39,522 nt of DNA from a virus. How positions within the stretch are numbered: the stretch's first letter is position 1; each line of letters begins with the position of its first letter. Where the stretch lies: the IMG/VR virus record IMGVR_UViG_3300025327_000083, positions 1 through 39,522 of that record. One strand, written 5' to 3'. The notes beneath the pieces were generated by a model that was not told where the DNA came from, did not search any database, and saw only the letters and a program-made list of their open reading frames with translations. The position numbers were made by a program, and so were the translations under genes. This document shows, in pieces, positions 454 to 39,522 of the stretch.

Positions 454-3401
454 TATTTCTTCTCTGCTGGCGATTTCGCTGCCTTGGCTGGCGTGCCAGG
501 AATCTTATCCACACGCTGCACGCCAATCGCCTTGCCATCCTTCTCGACGATCATCGATGGCCTGCCCAACTCAGTCGCGACCTTCTCCATCGACTCCGCG
601 ACCACTTCCGTCTGTCCTTTGATCGCCTCGGCAAACTCCTTCATGCTGCTCGCCAGGTCGCCCTTGCTGGCCAACGTCTCATTTTCCTTCTTCAACTGTG
701 CCAGTTCGGCCTGTGCCTGAACCCCTTCGACCTTGGTAAATTCCTTCATGCTGGCGGCCAGGGCGGTCAGCGCCTTTTGGTCCACGCCTTCGCCGCGCCC
801 GAGCGATGCATGCTCCTTCTTGAGTTCGGCCAGTTGAGTGTTGACGTTCTTCAGCGCTTCGGAGAGCTTGTCCAGTCGCTTGTCGGATTCAGCCCGCACA
901 GTCTCCATTTCGACCTTGGTCGCCTGGTCGATTCGATACCGCTCGATCTCGGTGTCGCGCTTGGCTACCACTTCGGCCCCGCGATTCATCCCCTCCATCT
1001 GTACCTTCTGGAGTGCATCGCGAAGTTTGCGGACCTCGTCATCCCTCTGTTTCGTGATCGCGTCGACCTGAGACGCCATCTCCGAACGTAGTTGTTCCAC
1101 AGCATCAGACTCGCGCCGCATGGCGTCGTCGCCCGCTCCGTCGATCGGCGCCGCACGAAGGCGCTCGGTCTCAAGGCGCACCTGCTCGATTTCTGCATCC
1201 AACTTCTCCACCTGTTTTTGTTGCTCTGCAATAGCCACGGCCGCCAAGGCTGCATTGGGATCGGCCTCCTGGCGCTGAGCCATGATTTGCTGCGTCGCCA
1301 TGGCCGCCATCATGGAGACTTGATGCTCGATCTCCGGCGGCATGATCTGGCGCTGCTCGGCGGATGGGTCGGGGATCATCACGCCCATCGCCTGACTCAT
1401 CTGGATCAGGTACATCTGGGCGTAGTGCTCGGCGATGTGCGCGGACATGCGCGGCACGAACGTCGGTTCGATCGGTGTGCCCTTGACCATCTCCATTTGC
1501 CCCATGTGCACGACAAGGTGGGATTGGTGGTCCTGCTCGACGAATGATTTGATCGGCTTGCCTGTGGTAACCAGCACGCCCTCGGTCACCGGATCCGCCG
1601 GCAGAACCTCCTCCGGCTTCATCAGGATTTCATCCATGTTCTGCACCTTGAGCGCCTGGAGCACGCGGCGATGCACTTCGCGCTTGTTGTACAGGTCCGG
1701 TGCGCGCTCGGATAGCTCGAGCTGGGCCTGGGCAATCGCCATGCGCTGCCCTTGGCTGTAGATGTTCGGGTCCGAGACCGGGATGACGTCCACCCGCTCG
1801 TCGTAATCCGCCCGATTGATGCGCCGCGTCTGCCCGTTGAAAGCGTAGTCCTTGCCCGTTGCCGGCAGGTATTCGGCGTTCAACTCAGCCCGCTGCTTGA
1901 ATTCCTCGCCGGCCGCGTTGTGCAACCGCTTGTGGATAGCCGAATAGACCTTCGAGCCCTGGTCAATGCGCGCCAGCGTGGTGCCCACCGGCACGTTCGT
2001 CACGCCTTCCCCAACCATCTCGTCCGTGGTAGAGGCAAAGCGCCGGGCGGCGTCGACAAGTAGGCCAAGCAGATTGAACAGCGCCACCGACGGCTCCCGG
2101 AACGGCGGCGTATAGAAGGCGTTCTTCAACTCCTCGGCCGTCAGATCGATGTCCTGGTAAGTGCCAGGTTTGATCGTCAGTTCAGCCGCCTTGCCGCGGG
2201 CCTCCTTGGCCTTGAAACCGCCCTGCATCGATGCGAATGCAGCCGAATCAAGCAGCGCCCGCAGAGCGCCAGTCGCCGCCTCGGCCAGCCCGCCGATGGC
2301 GTGCAGGAACCCGAAACCATAGAACCCGAACCCGGGCAACAGCCGGTAATGCGTGAACCAGCACCGCGGCCTGTAGAGCTTGTCGTTCTCCCGGTAGTTG
2401 CGCCGGATCGAGAGGACCTTGCGACTATCCTTCTCCACACTGATGATGTAGGGGAGCTTGCGTTTGCTCGACTTCCCTGCATGCTTGTGCTCGTGCCCTT
2501 TCAGATCAAGGAATTTGTGGCACTCGTAGATCGTATGGTCGTCGTCGCCGGGCAGGTTCGTTGGCGTCTTGCTGTCCGCCTGCGCTTCGATGCTCTTGGC
2601 CGCGTCATCCGCGGCCGATACTGGCTCCGTGAGTTCAATATCGCGGTAAAACCCGGACAGTTGCATGATGCGCAGGTCGTTAGGCTGCATCCGCATGCGA
2701 TGCGTCGCCCGCGGCGCCGTACGCAGCCCGCGCGCTGTGTACGGCACGATCAAATCCTCGGCTGTCACGTACTTCGATCGCACGATGCCAAGCTGCACGT
2801 CGATGTAGCTCTTCTTGAAGATAGAGCCATGAAAAGCCAGGATGAACAGCATCTGGTCGGTGTCCTCGAAGTAGCCTTCGTCCTCGTGGAGCACCTGATA
2901 GTTCATGTGCGTCTCGACGCGCTCGCGCTGGGCCTCGACCATCTCATTCGGGACGCCCACCACACCACACTTCACCGGCCCGTTGGTCGGGAATATCTCC
3001 TCGATCGCGCGCGCTTGAAACTGCGTCGCCGCTTCCATGATGACCGGATGCACGACAGTCGCAGCGCCGGGGAACGGGCCCTCTTCATCCCCGCCTTTGT
3101 CCTTGATTACACCGCACTTTTTGAGCCCTTCCGAGTACCACTGCTCCCATTCCTTGCGGCTTTCGATATCGGCGTCGATTTCCTCAAGAATCGTGTCGGC
3201 GATCGACCCAAGGTCCGTCTCCAGCATGTCGACAGCCAAGTTGTCCTCATCGCTTAGGCCGGCCGGCTCCGCATTACCCGGGTCAAAATCGATGTCGATT
3301 CCCCCGTCGCCGGTCTGGATGATGGCTACGCCATCGACCATCTCCGTGCCCGGCTCGGGCAGTTCCACATCGATCTCGCGCTCACGTCCGCGCTCAGCCA
3401 T
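453..3401 (-). CDS. Portal protein
   Basis: At 982 residues this is long for a portal protein. The dodecameric portal forms the DNA entry and exit channel at one capsid vertex and docks the terminase. The N-terminal 40-50 residues are acidic and poorly structured. Residues of roughly 80-600 carry a portal-like core with WYSEGLKKCG, FPGAATVVHPVI and FYGFGFLHAIGGL. The C-terminal 300 residues are Gln/Glu/Lys-rich coiled coil (AEQQKQVEKLDAEIEQVRLE and following), resembling the barrel helices of podovirus-like portals. The identity rests on this pattern and on immediate linkage to the large terminase, whose last 8 bases overlap its start. I cannot exclude that the coiled coil carries an additional scaffold-like role. 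Confidence 0.85.
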   Translation of the reverse strand: MAERGREREIDVELPEPGTEMVDGVAIIQTGDGGIDIDFDPGNAEPAGLSDEDNLAVDMLETDLGSIADTILEEIDADIESRKEWEQWYSEGLKKCGVIKDKGGDEEGPFPGAATVVHPVIMEAATQFQARAIEEIFPTNGPVKCGVVGVPNEMVEAQRERVETHMNYQVLHEDEGYFEDTDQMLFILAFHGSIFKKSYIDVQLGIVRSKYVTAEDLIVPYTARGLRTAPRATHRMRMQPNDLRIMQLSGFYRDIELTEPVSAADDAAKSIEAQADSKTPTNLPGDDDHTIYECHKFLDLKGHEHKHAGKSSKRKLPYIISVEKDSRKVLSIRRNYRENDKLYRPRCWFTHYRLLPGFGFYGFGFLHAIGGLAEAATGALRALLDSAAFASMQGGFKAKEARGKAAELTIKPGTYQDIDLTAEELKNAFYTPPFREPSVALFNLLGLLVDAARRFASTTDEMVGEGVTNVPVGTTLARIDQGSKVYSAIHKRLHNAAGEEFKQRAELNAEYLPATGKDYAFNGQTRRINRADYDERVDVIPVSDPNIYSQGQRMAIAQAQLELSERAPDLYNKREVHRRVLQALKVQNMDEILMKPEEVLPADPVTEGVLVTTGKPIKSFVEQDHQSHLVVHMGQMEMVKGTPIEPTFVPRMSAHIAEHYAQMYLIQMSQAMGVMIPDPSAEQRQIMPPEIEHQVSMMAAMATQQIMAQRQEADPNAALAAVAIAEQQKQVEKLDAEIEQVRLETERLRAAPIDGAGDDAMRRESDAVEQLRSEMASQVDAITKQRDDEVRKLRDALQKVQMEGMNRGAEVVAKRDTEIERYRIDQATKVEMETVRAESDKRLDKLSEALKNVNTQLAELKKEHASLGRGEGVDQKALTALAASMKEFTKVEGVQAQAELAQLKKENETLASKGDLASSMKEFAEAIKGQTEVVAESMEKVATELGRPSMIVEKDGKAIGVQRVDKIPGTPAKAAKSPAEKK

Positions 3402-4947
3402 ATAACCGCCGTTTCTTGGGATTGGGCACTTCGTCTTGCTCCTCGTCCTTGAGTTGGAGATGCCAGGTACGGCGCAGGTAAATCAGCGCCGCGGTCACGG
3501 TGTCGACCGTGTCATCGTATTCGCCATTCGGGAATTGCGCGCACTGCCGGATTACCGTGTTCGCCCAAGTCCGCCGCATGTGCCAGACGCAGCCCTGCTC
3601 GAATACCGCGGCCGCCGCGTGGGCCCGGCCTATCTTGCTGCGATCTGGCGAGTACGCCTTGACCGGGACCCCAGCGCGCCTAAGTTCTTGAAGTAGTGAG
3701 TGTCCGGAGGCTTTCTTCTCGATCAAGACCCGGTCCGGCTCGTACAGATCGTATGCGTCCTTCGCCTCGCGCTTCAGCCGCGGGAATTGCACCTTGTCCT
3801 GCCAGTGTTCGAGCAAGATGGCGTTCCAGTGATGCGCTGGCGGCTTCTTCAGCAGTTCGACGGGTATCTTCTTCGGATTCTGGTCATTCCAGTTGAAGAT
3901 TCCCCACGTGGTCCGCGCCGAGTAGTCGCTCTCTTCGCCCTCCTCGAACGCCGTGTCGTAGACCTGGAGGATGAAATCGACTGTCGGCGGCTCCTTGAGC
4001 GGCCACTCGCGCCAGTACGCGGCCTTGAGGATGGCGCCCTCCGCGGTCGAAGGCTTCTGCTGGTACAGGGCCCCCCAGTTTCGGCTGCCCTGGATGGTTT
4101 TCTCGATCTTGAGCGCGTCGGCCGATATCCAGCCCGGCCACAGGGCTTCGCCAGCCTTGCGCCCGAGTAGGTCCTGGGCCTCCTCTTCCTTGGTCTCGAC
4201 GAGCGCGGGCATGCAGACGATCATCCACTCTTCGCCCCCGTCGCGAGACTTGATCAGCCCGCTTTCCCCCTTCCAGTTCTCCGGCAGGATCCGGCCCGCG
4301 ACGTCGTCCTCATGCCATCGGGTCAGGATCAGGATAATCCAGCCGTCTTTCTTCAGCCTGGTGCGCAGTTCTCCGCGGTAGGTCTCCCAAGCATTCTCGC
4401 GGATCGTCTCCGAGTCAGCTTCCTTCCGGCCTTTGATCGGGTCATCCATGATGAGCCCGTTCGCCCGCCGGCCGGTAACACCGCCGTCCATGCCGCAGGC
4501 GTAATACTCGCCGCCCTGGTTCGTGCCCCAGTCACCGCGGGCCTTCGAGTCATCGGCGAGCCACACATCGTTGAATATGGCCTGATATTCAGCCGAATCA
4601 ACGATATTGCGCACCCGGCGGCCGAACCGCTTGGCCAGTTCCCCGGTGTGCGAGACTTGGATGATGTTGTGCTTCGGGTGCTTGCCCAAGTACCACGGCG
4701 GGAAGCGCACCGAGCAGTAGGTCGATTTCGCGTGCCCGGGCGGCATCAGCACCATCAGCCGCTTGATCTTGCCAGTCTCGACCTGGTGCAAGTAATGGAG
4801 CAGGAGTTGCGAGTGATCAGCTGGCGGCTCGTCCGGGAACAGCGTGCGGCAGAAGTTCACCGGCAGGCGCCGCGCCAGCCGGCGCTCGTGTTCGCGGACC
4901 AGTTTTACGTACCGTCCATCGGTGCGTAATTGTTCCACGGCGCCCAT
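3394..4947 (-). CDS. terL: Terminase large subunit
   Basis: This 517-residue packaging ATPase/nuclease cuts concatemeric DNA and pumps it through the portal. The ATPase domain shows a Walker A-like motif PPGHAKST at residues 69-76, an adenine/arginine region RFGRRVRN, a Walker B motif LIMDDP near 165-170 (Asp-Asp in place of Asp-Glu), and a coupling motif LILTRWHEDD near 205. The RNase H-like nuclease domain shows the acidic clusters VYDTAFEEGEESDYSA near 330 and VLIEKKASG, followed by YDDTVDTVTAALIYL near the C-terminus. Length is normal for the family. It overlaps the portal start by 8 bases and follows the small subunit by 5 bases, the classic packaging cassette order. Confidence 0.95.
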   Translation of the reverse strand: MGAVEQLRTDGRYVKLVREHERRLARRLPVNFCRTLFPDEPPADHSQLLLHYLHQVETGKIKRLMVLMPPGHAKSTYCSVRFPPWYLGKHPKHNIIQVSHTGELAKRFGRRVRNIVDSAEYQAIFNDVWLADDSKARGDWGTNQGGEYYACGMDGGVTGRRANGLIMDDPIKGRKEADSETIRENAWETYRGELRTRLKKDGWIILILTRWHEDDVAGRILPENWKGESGLIKSRDGGEEWMIVCMPALVETKEEEAQDLLGRKAGEALWPGWISADALKIEKTIQGSRNWGALYQQKPSTAEGAILKAAYWREWPLKEPPTVDFILQVYDTAFEEGEESDYSARTTWGIFNWNDQNPKKIPVELLKKPPAHHWNAILLEHWQDKVQFPRLKREAKDAYDLYEPDRVLIEKKASGHSLLQELRRAGVPVKAYSPDRSKIGRAHAAAAVFEQGCVWHMRRTWANTVIRQCAQFPNGEYDDTVDTVTAALIYLRRTWHLQLKDEEQDEVPNPKKRRLYG

Positions 4948-26195: not shown

Positions 26196-26621
26196 ATGGC
26201 TGAAACAAGCCGCATTGAATGGACGCGCTCGACGTTCAATCCTTGGATTGGTTGCACCAAGGTTGGGCCCGGCTGCGATCATTGCTATGCCGAAACGCTA
26301 GATAAGCGCCACAATTGGGGCGGCGCGACGCACTGGGGCCCAGGCGTGCCACGTCACCGCACCAGCGTTCACTATTGGAATGAGCCTCTGCGCTGGAGTG
26401 CGAAAGCCGCTTCGGCCTCGATGAAGTGCAGCCAGGGCCATACATTCACGAACGAAGCTCGGCTCGCCATCGAGATTAATGACGTTCTGGCGATGATTGA
26501 AATGCTGAAGGCCGAATGGCTGATTACCAGTATGGTCGATCGAGCCGCGATCGACCGCAAGAAAGCAAAGGTCGAGGCATTCCTGGAGTATTCCAAGAAG
26601 TGCGGGACGCTGCAACCATGA
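26196..26621 (+). CDS. Truncated or chimeric DUF5131 (phage Gp37/Gp68-like) protein
   Basis: The first 70 residues carry the hallmark of phage Gp37/Gp68-like proteins (DUF5131): IEWTRSTFNPWIGCTKVGPG then CDHCYAE, with three cysteines in a CxxxxxxCxxC pattern reminiscent of radical-SAM cluster ligands, followed by HRTSVHYWNEPLRWSAKA. Full family members run to roughly 230-300 residues. Here the family pattern stops after about 70 residues, and the rest (CSQGHTFTNEARLAIEINDV and on) is an unrelated helical tail ending at 141. Its TGA overlaps the methyltransferase ATG. It may be degraded, or a reduced form with the cluster site kept. Confidence 0.7.
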   Translation: MAETSRIEWTRSTFNPWIGCTKVGPGCDHCYAETLDKRHNWGGATHWGPGVPRHRTSVHYWNEPLRWSAKAASASMKCSQGHTFTNEARLAIEINDVLAMIEMLKAEWLITSMVDRAAIDRKKAKVEAFLEYSKKCGTLQP

Positions 26622-27826
26622 ACCGCATCGTCATCGGTGACTGCCTGGAAAAGCTTGCAGAAATTGCAAATATGTCGATCGACGCGATCATCACGGATCC
26701 GCCGTATCATTTAACCACTGGGAAGAAAGGCGGAAGCGGGCCGGCTTCCGTCAATCTGCAATCGCCCTATGGCCGCGCCCGCATCGGAACCGGCTTCATG
26801 GGGATGAAGTGGGATGGCGGAAATATAGCCATGCGGCCCGAGACGTGGGCCCTGATGCTGCGCGTGGCGAAGCCCGGCGCGCACTTGCTGACTTTCGGCG
26901 GTGCGCGGACCTTTCACCGGGTCTGGTGCGCCGTTGAGGACGCCGGCTGGGATGTACGAGATACCCTTCTTTGGCTGCATGGCGAGGGCTTCCCGAAGTC
27001 GAGCAATCAGAAAGGCGAATGGGAAGGATGGGGCACGGCGCTCAAGCCTGCCTTCGAACCGATACTGTTAGCGCGCAAGCCGCTTATCGGCACGGTCGCC
27101 GAGAACCTTGCGGCGCATCATATAGGCGCGCTCAACATCGACGCCTGCCGCATTCCTGGTGGCGCAGGCGGCACCCGTGAAGGCGAGGACTCAGCGGGAC
27201 GCCGGTATGCGGAGAAAGGTTCTACGAACTTTGCGCCGACTCCGGGGCCGCGAGGCGGGGATGCGAAGGGCCGCTGGCCGGCCAATGTCCTGCACGATGG
27301 CAGTAATGAGGTAATTGCTGCATTTCCGCTCGAGGCCGGCGCTGCGGCTCCGGTCACTCGGCGCGGTGCGGACAAATCCAGGAACAGTTACGGTGTCTTT
27401 GCTGGGCAAGAGGAAGTCGGGCACTTCCACGATGACAGCGGCAGCGCCGCCCGTTTCTTCTGGTGCCCGAAAGCATCCAAGCGCGATCGCAATGAAGGTC
27501 TGGAGGGCATGCCACGCAAGGCCGTGAACTGGTCGAGCGGAGATCAATCGCCCGGCACGTTTCAATCCCCGAACACCGACCGCGAGAACGAGAACTTCCA
27601 TCCCACGGTCAAGCCTACTGAGTTGATGCAATGGTTGATTCGGCTGGTGACACCGAAAGGCGGGGTGGTGCTGGATCCTTTCATGGGCTCCGGCTCTACC
27701 GGAAAAGCAGCGATGCGCGAAGGCATGTCATTCATCGGCATCGAGCTTGACAGAGCGTACACGGAAATCGCGGAACGCCGAATAATCGGAGTTGCGCCAT
27801 TGTTCGCAGATAAGATTGAATCATGA
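26618..27826 (+). CDS. DNA adenine/cytosine-N4 methyltransferase (orphan)
   Basis: This 402-residue enzyme is of the beta-type N6-adenine/N4-cytosine family. Motif IV DPPY is at residues 27-30 (IDAIITDPPYHLTT), and the SAM-binding motif I is near residue 350 (VVLDPFMGSGSTGKAAMREG, then FIGIELDRAY). This IV-before-I order defines the class. The middle has a variable target-recognition region (PGPRGGDAKGRWPANVLHDG). HPTVKPTELMQWLIRLVTP precedes motif I, as expected. No cognate restriction enzyme is visible, so it is probably an anti-restriction or regulatory orphan methylase. The giant protein carries another methyltransferase domain. Confidence 0.93.
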   Translation: MNRIVIGDCLEKLAEIANMSIDAIITDPPYHLTTGKKGGSGPASVNLQSPYGRARIGTGFMGMKWDGGNIAMRPETWALMLRVAKPGAHLLTFGGARTFHRVWCAVEDAGWDVRDTLLWLHGEGFPKSSNQKGEWEGWGTALKPAFEPILLARKPLIGTVAENLAAHHIGALNIDACRIPGGAGGTREGEDSAGRRYAEKGSTNFAPTPGPRGGDAKGRWPANVLHDGSNEVIAAFPLEAGAAAPVTRRGADKSRNSYGVFAGQEEVGHFHDDSGSAARFFWCPKASKRDRNEGLEGMPRKAVNWSSGDQSPGTFQSPNTDRENENFHPTVKPTELMQWLIRLVTPKGGVVLDPFMGSGSTGKAAMREGMSFIGIELDRAYTEIAERRIIGVAPLFADKIES

Positions 27827-29747: not shown

Positions 29748-29773
29748 CGGCCGCATTCGTGCGGCCGTTTTTT
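29748..29773. terminator. Bidirectional intrinsic terminator
   Basis: CGGCCGCA-TTCG-TGCGGCCG gives an 8-bp perfect stem with a stable TTCG loop followed by six T residues on the plus strand. It separates the convergent rightward arm (stop at 29716) and the giant leftward gene (stop at 29772). The A-residues before the stem on the plus strand are too few for a strong opposite terminator, so it mainly serves the rightward arm. Confidence 0.85.
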
Positions 29774-32700
29774 ATTTCTTCGCTGCGAACTCCCGGGTAA
29801 GGCGCTCCATCTTTTCTCGTTGGTAGGCCATCTTCTTCTCGTAGTCATCCCGACCCATGCCGTGACGCGAGTATTCGCGCGCGAGCTGGTACATGATGGA
29901 CTTGATCTGTCCGATCTGAATCTGCAACTCGATAGCAGCATTGCGCTGCATCACGTCCGGCGCGTAGCTCGAGACTTTGATCCCAAAGGACGATAGACCT
30001 GCCTGCGCAAAGGATTGCTCGCGGCCGAACACGTCCGTCCTCCCGGTGCCCGCCCGCACGAGCGCGGTTCCAGCGTAAGAGAATGGAATCCATGGCGCAT
30101 TCGGAGCAAATGATTTGTAAACGTGCTCAGATATCTTGCCGCTGATCTCCGCCATGGTGTCGGTTTCGCGATTGGTGATCGGCTTGCCGGTGAACAGGCT
30201 CTTGTTGAAGATGATCTCGCCAATGATCGCCAAGGGCCCGCCTGGCACCAGGGTTGGCACGAATGGGATGGCGGCCTGGGTCTCGCCAGTGTCGAAGATA
30301 TCCCCGAGCGGTATCCATCGGCGCACGTCCAAGAACACAGGCTGGTCGCTCTGGTCATTCCAGGGCATACGGATCAGCTTCGGTACGATGCCCCAGATTC
30401 GTCCCGCCTTCTCATCCGGCAGGAAGGCACGCTCCCGCTCCTCATCGTCGTCTGAGAGGCCCAGCATGGCGTAGGCGATGGCATTGAGCCCACCTGCGAC
30501 CAGCATGTACTTGGCGAGCTTCCAGGGTTTGCGGGAGAATCCGTGCAACAGCCGTGGCAATGCCCGGTAGGAGAATGAGATGAAGGGCAGCGCCGTATGG
30601 CGGGCCGCCTGAATCCAGGGCGCGTTGATGTTATAGTCGAGGAAGGCTTGTTTTGCTGTCTTGCCAGCCTCCAAGTCGCTCTTGCCGGCTGCGGTTTCCC
30701 GAAGGAATACGGCCAGGCGGAAGAATTCATCCTCGAACTGATAGGCGTCCATCATGGCATTGGCGCCGCGCCGGGCCCACTCGGCCGGCCTGGAGACCGC
30801 CAGCCGCGTAGCCGATTCCTTCAATTTGCCGTGCGCGAGCGCGGATAGGAAGGCAACTGCCTCTTCCACCACATCAGCGCTCCCGGCCTGCACTTCCTCA
30901 CGAAGCGCCGCGAGGAGTGGCCTGACCGTCTCTTGCTGTAGCTCATGGGTGACGAACATGCCAGAAGTCGCACCAGAATCCTCGAAGCGCTGGATGGTGA
31001 GTTTCGCCTTCTCATCTCCAGACTGTGCTTCCAGGTACACCTTCATGGAATCCCACAAATCGCGGCCGGTAATGTCCTCGACGTCCGCGAAGATGAAATT
31101 CGCCATGACGTTGTTCATGTGCACGACCGGGCTCAGCGCTGTTTTGCTGATCTTGAACCACTTGACCACGTTGCCGTACAGCCGTCCAAACGGCCTGTAA
31201 TTCTGGTTCGCGATCTGCCGGATGTCGTTCCAGATGGGACCGGGAACGTACAATCCGGCGAGTTTCCCATAGCGCAGGGTATTCGTACCCGGCACCTTGC
31301 TCACCGGGACATGCACCCACGTCCCGGGACGATAAGCCTTCGATAGCCGTTCGCTGGCCTCTGCGATCTCTCCCTCGGGCTCCGGCTTGGCGTAGTGTGA
31401 AGCCAGCCATTCAAGAAAACGGCCCACTTCCAGGTCGCGCTGCATCATGTGGAGCGTCTTGGCGACCGAATACTTCACGTCATCCAGTTCGCCCATCTTC
31501 TCGCGCTCGGCCTTGGTGAAATCGCGCCACATGAGCAGCTTGTCGCCCTTGGTGTCGCGCGCTTCCCAAAGACCCTCATCCCGGTGCCATTCCCCGAATT
31601 TGGCCGGGACCGGGTGCTCCGCCGGCCAGTACACGACCTCGAGGATTTTGCCCAGTTGGCCGGTCTTTCCCATGCCAGGCAGCGGCTCGACACCTTCCCC
31701 GCGATTGGCACGGCGGTCGAAGCGAATAAACTTCATGCCTCGCAAACCCTTGTCGGCACGACCGGACTGCACCTTGCGCTCCCACCACTCCGGCGCGGCA
31801 TTGCGGATCTTAGCCATGGTGACTTCTTGCGTCATGCCGCGACCTTTGTACTGCTCGCCCAGGATGGAGATGGCGCGGCGGTGCGCCGGGACCGCTCCCT
31901 CATCGGCCAATTCGTACTTGGCATAGGTGCGATGCAGGTAAGACATGACGTTACGCTCGAACGAATCCTGCCCAAGCTGGCCGAGGCGCACAGCCTCTCG
32001 TCCCATGTCCACAATCATCCCTTTGACTTTGACGAGCACGGCCTGGCTCTCCGCCGGCAAATCGGAAAGCAATCGATCACCTTCGGTTTCGTTCTGCGTC
32101 ATCCACTGGTAAGCAACTCGGGACTGCGCACGGTCCAACATCGTAAGCGCATCCACGATGGTCTTGATGTCGCGCTCGCCGCGGCGCACGTTCACGAATG
32201 CCTGATCGCGCCGCTCGATATAGTCCAGCGTCAGCCCATAATCGGAAACAAGGCCAGCCTTCATGCCTTCAGGGACAAAAGCGCCAATGCGCCCGAGCAG
32301 GAAATCGTATGAGCGCGACGTGATCTTTTCGAGACCGATGGCCTGCATTGGCGCCCGAAGCAGAATATCCAGCAAACCAGTACGACGAGGAGCTTCCAAA
32401 CCACTGGGCTTTTGACCGCCGCCCCTCGATAGCCTGGCAGTTCCACGCGCCTGCACATAGCCACTCAAGGTCAGGAATCCGTACATTGGCACGTCCGGGT
32501 CATTCGACAGGTTGCGGAACACCGTGCCCAGTTTCTGCCAGAATCCTCTTGCATCCTTTTTGGCCTGTCCTGGCAACACATCCTCGTCGGGTCGCACGAC
32601 AATGTCTACGATTTCCAGAGATTTCCCGGGCGCGTTGCTCGCGAGCATGGACGCAATTACGTCCTCTCCATAGCCTTTGTCACTTTGCTGGTAGAAATCG

Positions 32701-35700
32701 CTGATGCGAATCGAATGCACGTTCACGAAATTCCCATCACCGTCAATTTCGCTGCGCACAAAGCCAATCTCCGCAGGCGCGCCAGCCTTGACGCTCATCG
32801 CGGTGTCGTAGATTTTGAACAACATCATGCGCGTATTCGCGCTTTTCCCTTCCTCAACAGCGCCAGCCAATCCAATGTGCTCATTGTGGTATATCGGCAG
32901 ACCGCGCTTGTCTGTTGCGCGCTCGAAGCGGTATTCGTCAATGCGATCGGCGGGACGCGCTGATATTCTGGAAAGAGCGAAATCCTCGACAGCTTCTTCA
33001 GCAGCCTGCGTGTCGCCCGAGAACACGGAAGGGCCAAGCGTCCCCACGCGCCCTTCTCTGGTGAAGCGACCGGCGCTCTCGACCAGTGCTCGGATATCTC
33101 CAATGCTGTATTCGAGAGTGAAGCCATGGGCACGGAGCCAGTTGCGGATAAAGGATACCAATCTCTCCCATCCAGAAAGCTCGACCGCCTTGCCGCCCAG
33201 GTCTGCCAGAACTTCCTCTGTCGCCTGCATCGTCGTCAAGTCACGATATTGCAATTTCAGATCGCGCACCGCCGTCTTGACATTCTCATTGCCGCGGTAA
33301 ATTTCCATGAGCAGAGGATCGATCGCTTCACCGAATATGCCGCGCAAGCCAAAGTGCGTAGCTTCATGCAGAATAACGAATTGCACGCGCCCGGCATCGC
33401 GCATGTGCCGGGAGAAGAGATAGATTTTGCCCTCGTGGAATGCGCCTTCAGCAGTATCAACCGCACCTTTCACTGTGATCAGGTCCAGCAATCCAGACGG
33501 CACACCTTCGCTTCTCGGCGTTTCTACCACCACGATCTCAGGAGCGCCCTTCCAGTTGCGCGTCAAGCGATCAACCATAGCCTGCACGGATGCGCGTGGA
33601 AGCCCGGGTTCTATCCTCGCCGCGCGCGAGAGCGCCGCTTCTTCGCCTTCAGCCCCAATCAAGTCAATGACAGGTTTGCCTTCGACAATGCGTCCAAAGA
33701 TATCCGGGCGATCGACCGGAATGAACAGCCTGTCCTTCCACTGAATGCGCTCGTGAATGACGCCCTGCTCGACGAGCAGCCTTTGGTCCGAGTAACTTAT
33801 CGACAAGCCGGATATTTCCATCCGCTGTTCGCCGGAGACCTTGGCCATCTTGATCTGCCAGCCGTTTGCGAGGATCGCCTTGGCCCCGGCTTTGATCTCC
33901 GCGAACCATTGCGCCGGCTTCATCTCCGTGAACTTCGAACCCACGCCGAGCTTCTTCAGCGTCTCATTGAGTTCTTTTTTCTGGATCAGACGGCCCAGCA
34001 AGCGCTCGCCGTCCTTGGTTTGCGTGCGCGCCACACGCACAGTTTCCGGCAGCCGGTCCCAAATCGGCAACATCGCCCCGGTGATCATGTGCTCGGTTTC
34101 GGTGTAGGTCTTGGGTGTCCTGGCTGTCTCATCGGCCCAAAGGCTTCGCGCACGATCGGGTGCGATAGGTTCGAAGTGCGGGACCATCTTGCCTACGGTC
34201 TTGTCGCCTTCCATAACCTTGACTTCGACCCGAAGCCTGCTCATGGTGATGTTATCGAAATCGTCGTTGTAGCTACGTTTCGAGGGCCCGATGCGAAGTC
34301 CGATATTCACCTGACGGCCGAATTCATCCGTGCGGCTGCCGCGCTTGAACAGCGCAAAGACCTTGCCGGTCTTGTTATCCAGATACCAAGAAGCGAACCT
34401 CTCACCCGTATCCTCAGTCAACTCAGCCACCGCATCGAAGTTGAAGAACGGCGTCGGCCTCTCGATATTCAATTCGACATACCGCGTTACAGCACCAGTC
34501 TTTTTGTCAGTATGAACAACGATGTCGCGAGTCTTGGTGGTCGAGAGCGCCTTGATGGTCTGCAAGCCATCATCGAATGTGCCGTTTTGGATGGCGCTTT
34601 CTGTCGCTGCCTCTATGCGCCGGAAGAACTCATCGAATACTTCATCCTGGACATGCACTTCCAGCGATAGCAAGCAGTTGAGGAATTGCGTGATCGGCGG
34701 CATCTTGGCCTCGACCAACTGGCCTTGATCGTCCACAATCCCTTCGAGACCCATCATCCTCAGAACCTTGTTTTTCTCGAGTCCTGTGGACCCAGCAACC
34801 AGATCCTCCAGGAAAGCACGCAACCCCATGCGCGCGTATTTGTTCTCCAGATTGTCCGCCGGCGAAAACACACCTTGCGAGGCAGCCTGCCTTTGTCCCT
34901 TAGTGAGCGCTCCCAGCTGGTCGAGACGCCGCGCGATCGAGGAGATGAACCGCTTTTGCGCTTTCAGGTTGGTACGCGGCAACACGTATTCGGGTGGTTG
35001 TTTCTGATTGGTCCGATGACTGCGGCCAAGACCTTGAACGGCTTTGTCGGCGCGCCACCCAGACTGCACCAGATAGTGACGGCGCAATTTCTGATTCTTG
35101 AAATTCAGATCGGCATGGAAGGAATATCCTGTCCCACCTGCATCGGTAAAGACGAGGATGTTCTTTTTGCCATCAAGGAACGCTTGTTTGTCCGCTTCAT
35201 TGGATGACGATCCGCGCTTCTGCTCAGTGAGCTTGATATCGCCGTCATTGTCTCGAACGCGCACGAATCTGCGCTTGCGGCCTGAGATTTCAGCCACAGC
35301 ATCGCTTCCGAATATCTCAACGACCATGTCGAGAGGATTATCAGGCACGCGGATTTCTTCGAGTGTCTTGAGAAGCGCATCACGCATCGCCACTGCTTCC
35401 TTGTTCTGCACTGGCTCACCCTTGCTATCCAGCACGGGTCGACTGCGGACATTGCCATTCTCATCTTTGTATTCCTCGTACTGGTTCACGGGGAATGATT
35501 TTCTGATCAATTCGAGTAGTGTTTGCCGAGGCGTGAAATCAAACTCTTCAATTTCCGTATCGTCATCTTCACGTCCTTGAGCGATGCGCGCGGCCTGGCG
35601 CTCCTGCTCAGCTTCATTGGTATTGACGAATTGAAGTATCGCGGCGCGACCAGCAGCCATATCGGCCTTGATGCCATCGATGACGCTTGGCATCTGCATG

Positions 35701-38700
35701 GCAGTGATGATCTGGTTGAAAAAGCGTTGTTGCGATGACCAGAATTGAGACTTGGCCCTGCTCTTGGATTGGCTATCCTTTTCCTGATTGGTAATTGCCA
35801 GCGCTGCGTTTATGTTGGCAAGAACGATCTGCCAGGCGCGCGCGAGTTCGTTGTAGATATCAGTCTGAAGCGGGGTCAAATCGTGTGGCAATTGATCATA
35901 CTTGACGCCACGGAAGGAAAGAGAACGGGCAACGTACACGCCCATCTGCTTCATGTTTTGAGCCACGATCTCCATTGCCGAGACGCCGGCAGCATCAATT
36001 TTGGAGATGAAGTCCTCGCTCTTTGCGAATGGCGTGCCTTCGCCCCACAGTCCAAGGCGTGAAGCATAGGCCAAGTTAAAGACCTCAGTCGCACCTGTAG
36101 CGGAAACATACACGATGCGGGCTTTCGGCAGCCTCTTTTGCAGGTCGATACCGGCAAGTGCTTGAGCGCTTGCCTTCGTGGCGCCACGCTTTCCCTTGAC
36201 CGATTGCGCATTGGCCATGGCATGCGCTTCGTCGAATACGACCACGCCATCGAAATCCTCGCCCACCCATTTGACGATCTGATCGGCTCTGCCGGGTGTC
36301 GGCATCACGCGCGCCTTCTTTTCCTCCTCGGACAATTTTGCGACGCTGCGCAATGTCGAATAAGTAGTGAAGAGAATGCCGCGATTGCCTTTGACATCTT
36401 CACCGAACGCAGTCTTGGACTGCGCAAAGATCAGATCAGGATCTCCGGTCACGCCGGAGAAATCGCGCTGTGCATCCTTGATCAGACCCTGTTTCTCGGA
36501 AACCCAAACCGCTTTCTTCTGCCCTTGACGGAAATGGTCAAGGATGATCCCGCTGATCTCGCGACCTTTGCCGACGCCTGTGTTATGATTTACGAATCCC
36601 TCAGCCAAGTAATTCTCTGGTCCTGGCACGTACATATCATAGAAATCATCCCTACCCACGAACTCGATGCTGCTGATCCGACGCCACACGCTATAGCGTT
36701 CCCATGAGGAAACCGCGCCGCTCAATTCCTCCTGAACTTGCATCAAAGGTGCTGGCCGAGTATCGATCTGGCGTGCCAACGCCAACGCTTGCAACGCGCC
36801 TCGATGTGACGCCTCCAACGGTAGCTGATTTCTTGCGCAAGCACGGCGCGACCATTCGCACCAGATCGGAGAATAATCGCCTTCGTGCGCCGATTGATGA
36901 AGCGCAGTTTCGAGCAATGCAGGCGAATCATTCTCAACGCGAGATTGCCCAATTGCTTGTCGTGTCGTTGCCAACTGTGGAGAGGGCGATGCGTCGTTTT
37001 GGGCTTCGATCAGTTCGAGGTCGCGGTTCGCCGATGGAGCGTAACTACTTTTGGCGTGGTGGAGTGCGCACAGACCGCGGCAGATATGTGATGGTGAAGG
37101 TTCCTGACCATCCGTATGCGACGGCAGACGGGTATGTGCGCAAGCACCGATTGGTGATGGAGAAAGTTGTCGGTAGATACCTCTTGCCAGAGGAAGAAGT
37201 GCATCACGACGATCATAACCGAGCCAACAATGATCCAAGCAATCTTCTGCTCTTCGCAAACCACAAGGAACATATGCGTCACCACTGGCGTGAGGAGTGG
37301 CATCTGCTCTATGCCCACAAGCGAGCAAGTCACCAGTCGCCAGCCTATCCCGAAGCGTGCACCAACCCTGCGGCGTCAGAAAGCGATGCTCGTCAGTGAC
37401 GGTGATTACTCGACCATCGTCTAGCGTGACACGGTAAAGGTCGGCCACACCCTTCTTGAAGGTCATGACGGCCCGGTGCGGCCGGAAGCCATTTTCCGTA
37501 AGCGATAGCACCCAATGCGGAGCGCCTTGTTGCGCTAGAACTTCAATGGGCGTGTGCGTGCCGGCGACTGGGTTGAAAATCCGCGTACCAGCGGCTACAC
37601 ACCCATCCCCGATGAAGTATCCCTTACGATCGCCATTGGGCAAGAAGTCCTGGAATGCCTGACCTGCGTATACGACGGTTTCGATCTGGGCATCAGAAAG
37701 CAGGCCATCCCGAATAACCTTTTCGGGCAGATTTGGCTGGTAGGTGGGAGCAGGAGGCTCGACCGCAGACATGGCTGCGGATTCGACCAATTCTCCTGGG
37801 TGTGTCTTGGAGCCCGGAACAGTCAGCCGTTGCGGCTTATAGGACTCAAAAATTGCATCGGTAAGTTCAGTTTCGTGCCGCGTAACCGCGGCCGTCTCTA
37901 TCGTTACGGGTGTAGCGCCACCATCGTCGCCGACAGCGACTCCAACACCAGCCGCGCCGCGTCCTCCGGCGACTGCTCCTCCAACTCCCCTGCGCTTATC
38001 ACCGGGTCGCCCTCCGGGCTTACCAGGTATTTGAACGCCACCTCCGGGTCGCCCTGGTCGAGCACCCTCACCCTTGCCCCCAAGTGCTCCAACTCCGGCC
38101 CCTCCAGCAACTCCTCCGACAGCGCCCATTGCATCAACAAGATCACCCCCAGGCTGCGCTCCGGCTCCACCCACGTCGGGGCGGCCTTCGCCAGCAGGGC
38201 GAGCGCCACCTTGTTGATCGGCTCCTGGTTGAGCCTCTGAAGTTGCTGGATTCTGTCTGTCATTGCGGATCTCCGAGAGAAGATCGAACAGTTCGGCGAG
38301 CTTTTCAGCCCTGCCGACCAAGACCTCTCCACTGGTCGGGCCCGTCTTGTCGACTACGATGATTCGATTGTCGAAAGTCGTCCCGTATTTGACGTAATTA
38401 TCCCCCGAAATAGAAACATTTGCACGGAAATTGTACTGAGACCGCATGCGCGCCCACCAGTCTTTCAGGAGGGCGGCCTGTTCGTTCATCCCATCACCCA
38501 TGATCGCCACCAGTCGACCACCAGGGGCAAGCCGCGCAAGGGCCTGCTCAAGATGCTGCGCGCCGGTGCGACTATCGCGGGCCCCTTGAATGCGGCCGGC
38601 GGTCGAAGAAAACGGCGGGTTCATCACGATGACCGTAGGGCTTACGTCATCTGGCAGGATATTATGAAGCTGCTCAGCGTTCTCGCTGAACACCCGGGCC

Positions 38701-39522
38701 CGCGGGAATATCTCCCGAAGAACCGCGGCGCGCCGCTGTGACAACTCGTTCAGGATTATCCTGGCGCCGGCGCCTTCCCCGAAGATTGCCAGCCCGCCGG
38801 TCCCGGCCGAGGGCTCGAGATAGGTTTCCCCGTAGCGCACATTCGCCGCCCAATTGGCGATGTAGGCGAGCGTTGGCGGCGTGGAAAACTGTTGAAATTC
38901 ATCGGTCTCGGCGGTGCGCTTGGTCTGCGTGGGGAGGGTCGCAAGAAACCTCTCCATGTTCTCCAGATCGCGGCGAGCATGATCGGGACTGGTCTCCGGG
39001 CGCGCGCCCCATTGACCTTGCCGCAGGTAAAGCTGCACACCGGCTTCCATAGCATCAAAGGCGTCCTTGGACGTGTACACCCCCTGTGCCTGTGTGCCCC
39101 CGAACGCGACGTCTGCCAGCCTGAAAAGCTGATCAGCCTTGAATACCTGCCCGGCGGAGAGCCATTCGGCTACCCGCTTGGCGACTTTCATGGACGCCGA
39201 CTCGACCGTGGCCTCGGTGAGTTCGGTGGAAAGCTGCTTTTCCTGGGCAAAGGCGATCGCGTAGGGCTTGATACCCTCCCCGAAGTTCTGGATCAGGAAC
39301 TTGAACAGGTCCTTGAGCGTGCGCCCGGCCGCCTGAAACGCCTTGAGCGCGGCTTCGAAGTGGGGCTTGGCCTGTTCGTAGGCTTCCTTGTCGAGCCCGG
39401 CTGGGAAGCTCTTGATCTTGTTGCCACCAAAGAGCTTCACCAATCCCTTCAGTGCCTCGTCTACGCCCTGCACGCCGAGCTTGGCGGCTTCGGCTGCGAG
39501 CGCGCCGACACGCTTTTCCTCA
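29772..39522 (-). CDS. Giant polyvalent protein: methyltransferase + SBNO/DarB-like helicase + HExxH + C-terminal module (5' partial)
   Basis: The frame is open to the window edge, so the N-terminus lies outside; from a GTG at 39473 it would give 3,233 residues including a 340-residue intein. Numbered from that GTG, a DNA methyltransferase domain shows YLEPSAGTGGLAIFG near 218 and NPPF at 285-288. A Gly/Pro linker lies near 400-520. An SF2 helicase of strawberry-notch/DarB type follows: P-loop TGVGKG from 965 after the intein, DEAH at 1081-1084, VSATGA, and QGLGRSHRTNQ near 1480. ILHEATHFGL (HExxH) lies at 2034-2043. The last thousand residues are helical, with hydrophobic segments near YMLVAGGLNAIAYAMLGLSD. 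Such polyvalent proteins are thought to travel in the capsid and protect incoming DNA. Confidence 0.9.
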   Translation of the reverse strand, partial: EEKRVGALAAEAAKLGVQGVDEALKGLVKLFGGNKIKSFPAGLDKEAYEQAKPHFEAALKAFQAAGRTLKDLFKFLIQNFGEGIKPYAIAFAQEKQLSTELTEATVESASMKVAKRVAEWLSAGQVFKADQLFRLADVAFGGTQAQGVYTSKDAFDAMEAGVQLYLRQGQWGARPETSPDHARRDLENMERFLATLPTQTKRTAETDEFQQFSTPPTLAYIANWAANVRYGETYLEPSAGTGGLAIFGEGAGARIILNELSQRRAAVLREIFPRARVFSENAEQLHNILPDDVSPTVIVMNPPFSSTAGRIQGARDSRTGAQHLEQALARLAPGGRLVAIMGDGMNEQAALLKDWWARMRSQYNFRANVSISGDNYVKYGTTFDNRIIVVDKTGPTSGEVLVGRAEKLAELFDLLSEIRNDRQNPATSEAQPGADQQGGARPAGEGRPDVGGAGAQPGGDLVDAMGAVGGVAGGAGVGALGGKGEGARPGRPGGGVQIPGKPGGRPGDKRRGVGGAVAGGRGAAGVGVAVGDDGGATPVTIETAAVTRHETELTDAIFESYKPQRLTVPGSKTHPGELVESAAMSAVEPPAPTYQPNLPEKVIRDGLLSDAQIETVVYAGQAFQDFLPNGDRKGYFIGDGCVAAGTRIFNPVAGTHTPIEVLAQQGAPHWVLSLTENGFRPHRAVMTFKKGVADLYRVTLDDGRVITVTDEHRFLTPQGWCTLRDRLATGDLLACGHRADATPHASGDAYVPCGLRRAEDCLDHCWLGYDRRDALLPLARGIYRQLSPSPIGACAHTRLPSHTDGQEPSPSHICRGLCALHHAKSSYAPSANRDLELIEAQNDASPSPQLATTRQAIGQSRVENDSPALLETALHQSAHEGDYSPIWCEWSRRACARNQLPLEASHRGALQALALARQIDTRPAPLMQVQEELSGAVSSWERYSVWRRISSIEFVGRDDFYDMYVPGPENYLAEGFVNHNTGVGKGREISGIILDHFRQGQKKAVWVSEKQGLIKDAQRDFSGVTGDPDLIFAQSKTAFGEDVKGNRGILFTTYSTLRSVAKLSEEEKKARVMPTPGRADQIVKWVGEDFDGVVVFDEAHAMANAQSVKGKRGATKASAQALAGIDLQKRLPKARIVYVSATGATEVFNLAYASRLGLWGEGTPFAKSEDFISKIDAAGVSAMEIVAQNMKQMGVYVARSLSFRGVKYDQLPHDLTPLQTDIYNELARAWQIVLANINAALAITNQEKDSQSKSRAKSQFWSSQQRFFNQIITAMQMPSVIDGIKADMAAGRAAILQFVNTNEAEQERQAARIAQGREDDDTEIEEFDFTPRQTLLELIRKSFPVNQYEEYKDENGNVRSRPVLDSKGEPVQNKEAVAMRDALLKTLEEIRVPDNPLDMVVEIFGSDAVAEISGRKRRFVRVRDNDGDIKLTEQKRGSSSNEADKQAFLDGKKNILVFTDAGGTGYSFHADLNFKNQKLRRHYLVQSGWRADKAVQGLGRSHRTNQKQPPEYVLPRTNLKAQKRFISSIARRLDQLGALTKGQRQAASQGVFSPADNLENKYARMGLRAFLEDLVAGSTGLEKNKVLRMMGLEGIVDDQGQLVEAKMPPITQFLNCLLSLEVHVQDEVFDEFFRRIEAATESAIQNGTFDDGLQTIKALSTTKTRDIVVHTDKKTGAVTRYVELNIERPTPFFNFDAVAELTEDTGERFASWYLDNKTGKVFALFKRGSRTDEFGRQVNIGLRIGPSKRSYNDDFDNITMSRLRVEVKVMEGDKTVGKMVPHFEPIAPDRARSLWADETARTPKTYTETEHMITGAMLPIWDRLPETVRVARTQTKDGERLLGRLIQKKELNETLKKLGVGSKFTEMKPAQWFAEIKAGAKAILANGWQIKMAKVSGEQRMEISGLSISYSDQRLLVEQGVIHERIQWKDRLFIPVDRPDIFGRIVEGKPVIDLIGAEGEEAALSRAARIEPGLPRASVQAMVDRLTRNWKGAPEIVVVETPRSEGVPSGLLDLITVKGAVDTAEGAFHEGKIYLFSRHMRDAGRVQFVILHEATHFGLRGIFGEAIDPLLMEIYRGNENVKTAVRDLKLQYRDLTTMQATEEVLADLGGKAVELSGWERLVSFIRNWLRAHGFTLEYSIGDIRALVESAGRFTREGRVGTLGPSVFSGDTQAAEEAVEDFALSRISARPADRIDEYRFERATDKRGLPIYHNEHIGLAGAVEEGKSANTRMMLFKIYDTAMSVKAGAPAEIGFVRSEIDGDGNFVNVHSIRISDFYQQSDKGYGEDVIASMLASNAPGKSLEIVDIVVRPDEDVLPGQAKKDARGFWQKLGTVFRNLSNDPDVPMYGFLTLSGYVQARGTARLSRGGGQKPSGLEAPRRTGLLDILLRAPMQAIGLEKITSRSYDFLLGRIGAFVPEGMKAGLVSDYGLTLDYIERRDQAFVNVRRGERDIKTIVDALTMLDRAQSRVAYQWMTQNETEGDRLLSDLPAESQAVLVKVKGMIVDMGREAVRLGQLGQDSFERNVMSYLHRTYAKYELADEGAVPAHRRAISILGEQYKGRGMTQEVTMAKIRNAAPEWWERKVQSGRADKGLRGMKFIRFDRRANRGEGVEPLPGMGKTGQLGKILEVVYWPAEHPVPAKFGEWHRDEGLWEARDTKGDKLLMWRDFTKAEREKMGELDDVKYSVAKTLHMMQRDLEVGRFLEWLASHYAKPEPEGEIAEASERLSKAYRPGTWVHVPVSKVPGTNTLRYGKLAGLYVPGPIWNDIRQIANQNYRPFGRLYGNVVKWFKISKTALSPVVHMNNVMANFIFADVEDITGRDLWDSMKVYLEAQSGDEKAKLTIQRFEDSGATSGMFVTHELQQETVRPLLAALREEVQAGSADVVEEAVAFLSALAHGKLKESATRLAVSRPAEWARRGANAMMDAYQFEDEFFRLAVFLRETAAGKSDLEAGKTAKQAFLDYNINAPWIQAARHTALPFISFSYRALPRLLHGFSRKPWKLAKYMLVAGGLNAIAYAMLGLSDDDEERERAFLPDEKAGRIWGIVPKLIRMPWNDQSDQPVFLDVRRWIPLGDIFDTGETQAAIPFVPTLVPGGPLAIIGEIIFNKSLFTGKPITNRETDTMAEISGKISEHVYKSFAPNAPWIPFSYAGTALVRAGTGRTDVFGREQSFAQAGLSSFGIKVSSYAPDVMQRNAAIELQIQIGQIKSIMYQLAREYSRHGMGRDDYEKKMAYQREKMERLTREFAAKK
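36581..36589 (+). promoter_or_regulatory. Possible extended -10 upstream of antisense HNH gene
   Basis: TGTTATGAT (TGn plus TATGAT) lies on the plus strand at the intein/extein junction, 115 bases before the HNH ATG. No -35 box is convincing at 16-18 bases. A second candidate, TATCAT at 36635-36640, is also without a -35. Confidence 0.25.
36582..37601 (-). other. Intein (340 aa) in the helicase P-loop
   Basis: Residues 625-964 of the giant protein form an intein. Block A is CVAAGTRIFNPV with Cys1 at 37599-37601. Block B is ITVTDEHRFLTPQGW, with Thr69 and His72 of TxxH. The domain continues LRDRLATGDLLACGH. Block F is SIEFVGRDDFYDMYVPGPEN and block G is FVNHN, ending in His-Asn (36582-36587) before Thr+1. 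Removing it joins GYFIGDG to TGVGKG and restores the helicase Walker A motif. The splicing halves (about 95 and 40 residues) equal a normal mini-intein. The linker of about 200 residues has no LAGLIDADG or in-frame HNH motif; the endonuclease is on the other strand. Confidence 0.93.
36704..37399 (+). CDS. HNH homing endonuclease encoded antisense inside the intein
   Basis: The 231-residue product has two helix-turn-helix units: LASKVLAEYRSGVPTPTLAT then LDVTPPTVADFLRKHGA, and NHSQREIAQLLVVSLPTVER then AMRRFG. An HNH domain follows: GRYVMVKVPDHPYATADGYV, RKHRLVMEKVVGRYLLPEEE, VHHDDHNRANNDPSNLLLFA and NHKEHMRHH. The His-His and Asn residues and the eHM-x-x-H end match free phage HNH enzymes. 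After about residue 203 the tail is unstructured and lies opposite the intein's N-terminal splicing domain; the TGA falls opposite Val68/Thr69 of block B. No good Shine-Dalgarno precedes the ATG. A homing role for the intein is inferred. Confidence 0.85.
   Translation: MRKPRRSIPPELASKVLAEYRSGVPTPTLATRLDVTPPTVADFLRKHGATIRTRSENNRLRAPIDEAQFRAMQANHSQREIAQLLVVSLPTVERAMRRFGLRSVRGRGSPMERNYFWRGGVRTDRGRYVMVKVPDHPYATADGYVRKHRLVMEKVVGRYLLPEEEVHHDDHNRANNDPSNLLLFANHKEHMRHHWREEWHLLYAHKRASHQSPAYPEACTNPAASESDARQ

Follow-up and report, generated by a model that had tools for sequence, protein, structure and literature searches.

The locus

The window analysed here, by which is meant the whole 39,522-nucleotide IMG/VR virus record IMGVR_UViG_3300025327_000083, contains an unbroken minus-strand open reading frame of 3249 codons whose 5' end lies beyond the contig edge and, within that frame, a 340-residue intein which bears on its opposite strand a gene for a predicted HNH homing endonuclease (Table 1). 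Matches to the Pfam families AAA_34 (E = 2.6e-109) and Helicase_C_4 (E = 3.2e-81) identify the host protein, as judged from its domains, as a giant helicase of the DarB/strawberry-notch (SBNO) type. The intein splits the Walker A loop of this helicase (...FIGDG/CVAAGTRI...FVNHN/TGVGKGRE..., slashes marking the junctions), and the insertion is precise and in frame, intein-free homologues reading GDG/TGVGKG. Each of the residues characteristic of a splicing intein is present, namely Cys1 (37599-37601), the histidine of a TDEH block B (residues 69-72), the terminal His339-Asn340 pair and a threonine at the +1 position, and profile matches were obtained with Pfam Intein_splicing (PF14890, E = 6.5e-14) and, in excess of its cut-off, with NCBIfam intein_Nterm. 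The complete intein (Cys1, TxxH, His-Asn/Thr) that an initial sequence-only reading had placed in the helicase P-loop was thereby confirmed, its motifs and coordinates proving exact to the base.

An AlphaFold2 model of the intein, computed from an alignment of 43 sequences, gave predicted local distance difference test (pLDDT) values of ~97 for both splicing halves (residues 1-99 and 301-340), falling to ~45 across residues 100-300, the segment encoded opposite the HNH gene. A Foldseek search with this model retrieved the Ssp DnaB, Npu DnaB and Mtu RecA mini-inteins.

The 231-residue product of the antisense gene matched HNH_3 (E = 1.4e-8) and HTH_23 (E = 2.2e-6), in both cases exceeding the Pfam gathering cut-offs, together with PHROG HNH families down to 3.4e-22. 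Its AlphaFold2 model (mean pLDDT 86) comprises two helical helix-turn-helix (HTH) bundles followed by an HNH beta-beta-alpha unit; the corresponding metal catalytic motif is present, with H168, N176, N180 and H190 invariant across 47 sequences. The antisense HTH-HTH-HNH gene proposed in the sequence-only reading was thus borne out by Pfam, PHROG and AlphaFold2, although it does not lie strictly between the two splicing halves as had also been supposed, its last ~26 codons and stop being sited opposite intein block B. Profile and fold searches additionally returned, at weak significance, a resemblance between the HTH part of the protein (36704-37000, plus strand) and the archaeal CRISPR-repeat binding protein Cbp1 (NF040595, 2lvs).

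Table 1. Features of the intein locus in the window, with the basis for each assignment (AF2, AlphaFold2)
Feature	Position	Strand	Basis
Host gene, giant DarB/SBNO-type protein (AAA_34 + Helicase_C_4)	29772..39521	-	Pfam matches; 5' end off contig
Intein, 340 aa, in Walker A loop (GDG/C...HN/TGVGKG)	36582..37601	-	Pfam/NCBIfam, motifs
N-terminal splicing half, residues 1-99, Cys1 + TDEH block B	37305..37601	-	AF2 pLDDT ~97; NCBIfam
Intein linker, residues 100-300, predicted disordered, opposite HNH gene	36702..37304	-	AF2 pLDDT ~45; host codon position 2 most variable
C-terminal splicing half, residues 301-340, ends His339-Asn340	36582..36701	-	AF2 pLDDT ~97
+1 Thr of C-extein (nucleophile), first residue of TGVGKG	36579..36581	-	Sequence, host alignment
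Antisense HNH homing endonuclease gene (predicted), 231 aa + stop	36704..37399	+	Pfam, PHROG, AF2
First HTH unit, HNH residues 10-46	36731..36841	+	AF2 helices
Second HTH unit, residues 66-98, HTH_23	36899..36997	+	Pfam, AF2
HNH nuclease domain, residues 121-209	37064..37330	+	HNH_3 match 146-191; invariant H168, N176, N180, H190
C-terminal HNH tail + stop, opposite intein block B	37319..37399	+	Selection there follows intein frame

Relatives at the same site and intein-free alleles

Scans for related loci with single proteins yielded one relative each, and alignments were needed to find more. The giant gene recurs on IMG/VR contig L002, where it too is split at this site by an intein, 51% identical to that of the window; nested in the intein is an antisense HNH gene (product 59% identical) which also begins MRKPR and ends in block B at nearly the same place. 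Inteins of the same layout occupy this site in a further IMG/VR contig (L100) and in the bacterium Polaromonas sp. CG9_12 (L199), the latter recovered along with others when bacterial genome contigs were scanned with alignment A10, an equivalent scan with alignment A1 having returned nothing. The sequence-only reading had called for just such an examination of both strands, and had named allelic inteins with an in-frame endonuclease remnant and a broken antisense frame as an outcome that would tell against it; no in-frame remnant was found in the allelic inteins of L002, L100 and L199, all of which retain both frames.

Two intein-free alleles of L002 (L107 and L108) share 92-93% DNA identity with it over 7.6 kb and lack exactly its 1041-bp intein unit, the site showing neither duplication nor loss. 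Such exact absence from so similar a phage is the pattern expected for homing.

Two further observations concern this site and its surroundings. The contig bearing L199 starts with a second, decayed intein-HNH copy (L200, G001:C5:284-953), in which both reading frames, host/intein and HNH, are broken, and IMG/VR contigs L101 and L102 terminate within an apparent intein at this P-loop site of the SBNO gene.

A wider class of Walker A inteins

When named phages were searched by tblastn with the HNH protein, hits came from eight Pectobacterium/Dickeya phages, each with the HNH gene antisense within a 'hypothetical protein', this being the terminase large subunit (TerL) interrupted by a P-loop intein (GFG/CVHPHTKV...IHHN/TGKS); the TerL of phage Koroua is annotated as hypothetical. 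The same design recurs in a different terminase in Pseudoalteromonas phage PHS3 (KX912252, L012 1661-3787 and 2929-3639), whose record shows an 'HNH endonuclease' on one strand and on the other a terminase that is truncated in the annotation, the intein having gone unrecognised. Whereas the HNH query was effective, tblastn of the intein protein against named phages gave no match, a failure probably due to the fast-diverging linker.

Scans of IMG/VR with HNH alignments yielded 160 loci. By script, 145 of 185 HNH open frames proved to be strictly antisense within a longer frame, 142 of those enclosing frames exceeding 350 codons, and over 140 loci distributed among IMG/VR, named phages and bacterial genomes carry an HNH gene antisense in an intein. 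An automatic classifier applied to the HNH-matched loci scored 141 as antisense and none as in-frame or same-strand, figures from which the share of all inteins with the antisense design cannot be read, since the sample was gathered by HNH similarity; two loci missed by the classifier were found by eye, one in-frame (L003) and one same-strand (L015).

A redundancy cut at 80% HNH identity left 78 distinct loci. In the aligned host segments (A6) the catalytic residues were almost uniformly retained: Cys1 in 77/78, the block-B histidine in 78/78, the penultimate histidine in 73/78, the terminal asparagine in 78/78, and serine, threonine or cysteine at +1 in 78/78. Pfam recognised the intein domain in 62 of them, Terminase_6N in 19, Terminase_3 in 15 and AAA_34 in 4. 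Lysine is the third residue after the insertion, giving (S/T)GK(S/T), in 69 of the 78, which marks these as Walker A inteins; nearly all inteins of the class are located in P-loops, mostly those of terminases, and most are borne by phages. Antisense-HNH inteins are therefore an overlooked class of mobile element rather than an accident of one genome.

Two loci of other construction were noted in passing. L015 (LR756508.1, a 484-kb phage) has a DNA methylase frame (1864-4215) with intein-like motifs (SG/CITPDTE...VTGN/SGF) undetected by Pfam or by the profiles built here, together with a same-strand HNH gene read in a different frame (2237-3121), and is possibly a sense-strand counterpart of the class. 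L064 possibly represents an unnested arrangement, in which an HNH gene of this family (2874-3299, plus strand) stands apart, downstream of the intein (1358-2239, plus strand).

Coding and selection on both strands

The relative phase of the two frames was identical in 78/78, intein codon positions 1, 2 and 3 lying opposite HNH positions 1, 3 and 2, respectively, and this fixed phase favours one or few origins. When each HNH gene was shuffled synonymously, a mean of 5.9 stops was expected in the intein frame, as against none observed in all 78 (for the window gene alone, 5.3 expected, P = 0.002); the remaining two antisense phases contained 712 and 587 stops over the 78 genes.

Comparison of the window with L002 revealed differences at HNH codon positions 1, 2 and 3 of 0.42, 0.29 and 0.67 in the first HTH unit, 0.25, 0.20 and 0.58 in the second, and 0.26, 0.20 and 0.47 in the HNH domain, the excess at position 3 being a signature of HNH coding. 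The pattern is flipped in the tail opposite block B (0.31, 0.38 and 0.08, over 26 codons only), a signature of intein coding. Codon-level comparison thus demonstrates selection on the HNH frame in the core and on the intein frame in the splicing blocks, with both proteins under purifying selection. An open antisense frame arising by chance was considered, and ruled out by the synonymous shuffle and the codon-position divergence. The sequence-only reading had envisaged a lone invasion in reverse orientation whose frame merely stayed open: the reverse-oriented nesting stands, but 78 distinct loci in one phase with both frames selected do not accord with the remainder.

Equivalent values for the host frame of the terminase family, which are descriptive since the pairs compared are not independent, were 0.53, 0.46 and 0.70 at positions 1, 2 and 3 in the N-extein, 0.37, 0.60 and 0.30 opposite the HNH core, and 0.24, 0.27 and 0.28 opposite the HNH tail. 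Four-fold sites of the host frame differed by ~0.70 in the exteins, as they did at the intein's free N end, and by 0.55 at its free C end, but by 0.31 opposite the tail, a low divergence from which the region opposite the tail looks constrained in both frames. A candidate for true dual-strand coding is provided by terminase locus L004, where the C-terminal HNH tail (3451-3714) overlaps the N half of the intein, opposite its residues 15-78.

Mechanism, mobility and alternative explanations

The interpretation preferred, with a probability of about 80%, is that the element is a mobile intein of the P-loop kind, the gene for its HNH homing endonuclease lying on the opposite strand within the linker-coding DNA. 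The helicase precursor would splice out the intein and so restore its own Walker A loop; the HNH protein would be made separately, from an antisense transcript of the intein segment, and would cut or nick the Walker A coding sequence of any co-infecting phage that lacks the intein there, whereupon repair of the cut allele would introduce intein and nested gene together as one unit of ~1 kb. Homing elements usually target sequence encoding an essential active site. The proposal of the sequence-only reading that endonuclease expression is uncoupled from splicing holds as far as could be tested, a separate opposite-strand gene being predicted.

Several points weigh against this interpretation. 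Neither a Shine-Dalgarno motif at the HNH start nor a sigma-70-like promoter for the HNH gene was found in the window, and Foldseek matches for the whole HNH model were weak (e.g., I-HmuI, E = 1.1). Antisense and free-standing HNH copies interleave in the HNH tree, with at least 12 label changes of which at least five are forced by supported branches, and some HNH genes may in consequence move on their own. Moreover, splicing, HNH activity and homing are all activities that we infer from sequence. A terminator for the window HNH gene was also sought and not found.

The window start without a Shine-Dalgarno motif, and the fact that expression of the HNH gene is a prediction, would suit the view that the antisense frame is a non-functional fossil of a reverse insertion, free of stops only because the intein is encoded opposite it. 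That view is very improbable, given that in the core, where the intein frame drifts, HNH variation peaks at position 3 and positions 1 and 2 are conserved, that the catalytic residues are invariant, and that Shine-Dalgarno motifs are enriched across the family: matches of at least 5 nt precede the HNH start in 55% of the 78 loci, compared with 15% in the other two same-strand frames, and those of at least 6 nt in 32% compared with 5%.

The interleaved tree bears on a second alternative, in which the HNH gene is mobile in its own right, a free-standing element that shelters in the linker and homes, or attacks competitors, independently, the intein serving as an immobile passenger or safe harbour. 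Free-standing relatives do exist, and lone HTH-HNH genes are common in phages; at least two of the 'free' rows of the tree (L061 and L065), it should be said, turned out to be truncated or broken antisense copies. Against such independence, intein and HNH distances are correlated (r = 0.74), the phase is fixed throughout, intein and HNH gene are jointly present in L002 and jointly absent from L107 and L108, and no allele was encountered in which the HNH gene occupied the site without the intein, all of which renders this explanation unlikely. In some pairs of loci exteins are only 12% identical, yet the inteins are 69% and the HNH proteins 47% identical, indicating transfer between unrelated P-loop genes.

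Overlap with the host mRNA is unavoidable for any antisense transcript, and it is conceivable that the transcript or the HNH product mainly regulates the host helicase or terminase gene, homing being secondary or lost. The pattern of presence and absence and the spread over unrelated host genes instead fit homing, and intein-free alleles of the same gene manage without the supposed regulator; a mainly regulatory role is accordingly to be regarded as highly doubtful.

For the family as a whole, it is likely that the homing inteins described here constitute a large and mostly viral Walker A class with an opposite-strand endonuclease in one phase, with true dual-strand coding in the terminases, with endonuclease expression independent of host translation and splicing, and with a capacity to jump among non-homologous P-loop ATPases.

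Elsewhere in the window, the virus's own terminase large subunit (Terminase_6, 3394-4947, minus strand) contains no intein detectable by Pfam, and an N6_N4 DNA methylase is encoded at 26516-27826 (plus strand).

Significance and comparison with known systems

The arrangement is a real and widespread new form of homing intein. No intein with an antisense endonuclease gene emerged from full-text literature searches, in keeping with the sequence-only reading, which knew of no precedent; a preprint on the 'non-canonical architecture' of actinobacteriophage inteins by the authors who described the ShiLan domain (see below) lay outside the scope of those searches. Full-length matches to the PHS3-type HNH protein among named phages were confined to the Pectobacterium/Dickeya group and PHS3, with none in actinobacteriophages, which makes a prior description of the arrangement there less likely. 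The class supplies dozens of natural cases of opposite-strand protein coding under selection and explains misannotated terminase genes such as those of PHS3 and Koroua; its occurrence in cultured phages opens splicing, antisense transcription and homing to direct testing.

Fractured genes, in which split inteins and separate endonuclease genes occur together at the intein locus, were reportedly described by Dassa and colleagues in 2009. They would resemble the present case in having an intein-linked endonuclease as a gene of its own at the intein locus, and would differ in that the host is broken and the intein split, whereas host and intein here form one continuous 3249-codon frame which the endonuclease gene overlaps in antisense.

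Antisense homing endonuclease genes are known in group I introns, as in Porphyra (S1506, His-Cys box; PMC2585584), where the endonuclease gene is likewise complementary to a self-splicing element. Such an intron is, however, an RNA splicing element whose sense strand needs no coding capacity, whereas in the intein both strands must encode protein.

The ShiLan domain (Arsenault, Gosselin and Gogarten 2025, PMC11855218), the nearest precedent for an out-of-frame endonuclease and one overlooked in the sequence-only reading, conceals an out-of-frame HNH endonuclease in a phage methylase insertion in which no splicing domain was detected. As in the window, the host frame stays open through a phage insertion with the HNH gene in another frame, and the ShiLan distribution is disjunct and homing-like. 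The ShiLan HNH gene, however, is on the same strand in a non-splicing methylase host, whereas the window insert possesses a complete splicing domain and an antisense HNH gene.

The TerL inteins of mycobacteriophages (Kelley et al. 2016, PMC5050341) also interrupt a phage terminase at its Walker A motif. The common TerL1-a insertion falls between the lysine and the threonine, whereas the present class is inserted ahead of (S/T)GK(S/T); the passages located report no antisense gene for the mycobacteriophage inteins.

Finally, in-frame HNH inteins are exemplified by L003 and by the dCTP deaminase intein of cyanophage CL131, for which self-excision has been shown (PMC6293099). Like the window element, these place in a phage gene a single mobile unit made up of a splicing domain and an HNH_3-type nuclease. 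Their nuclease is a same-frame domain freed by splicing, in keeping with the textbook view of inteins as single-frame elements, whereas that of the window is a separate opposite-strand gene, the in-frame segment being a linker predicted to be disordered. A class of inteins with an opposite-strand endonuclease changes the view of how inteins gain and keep endonucleases, homing being in these elements probably uncoupled from splicing.
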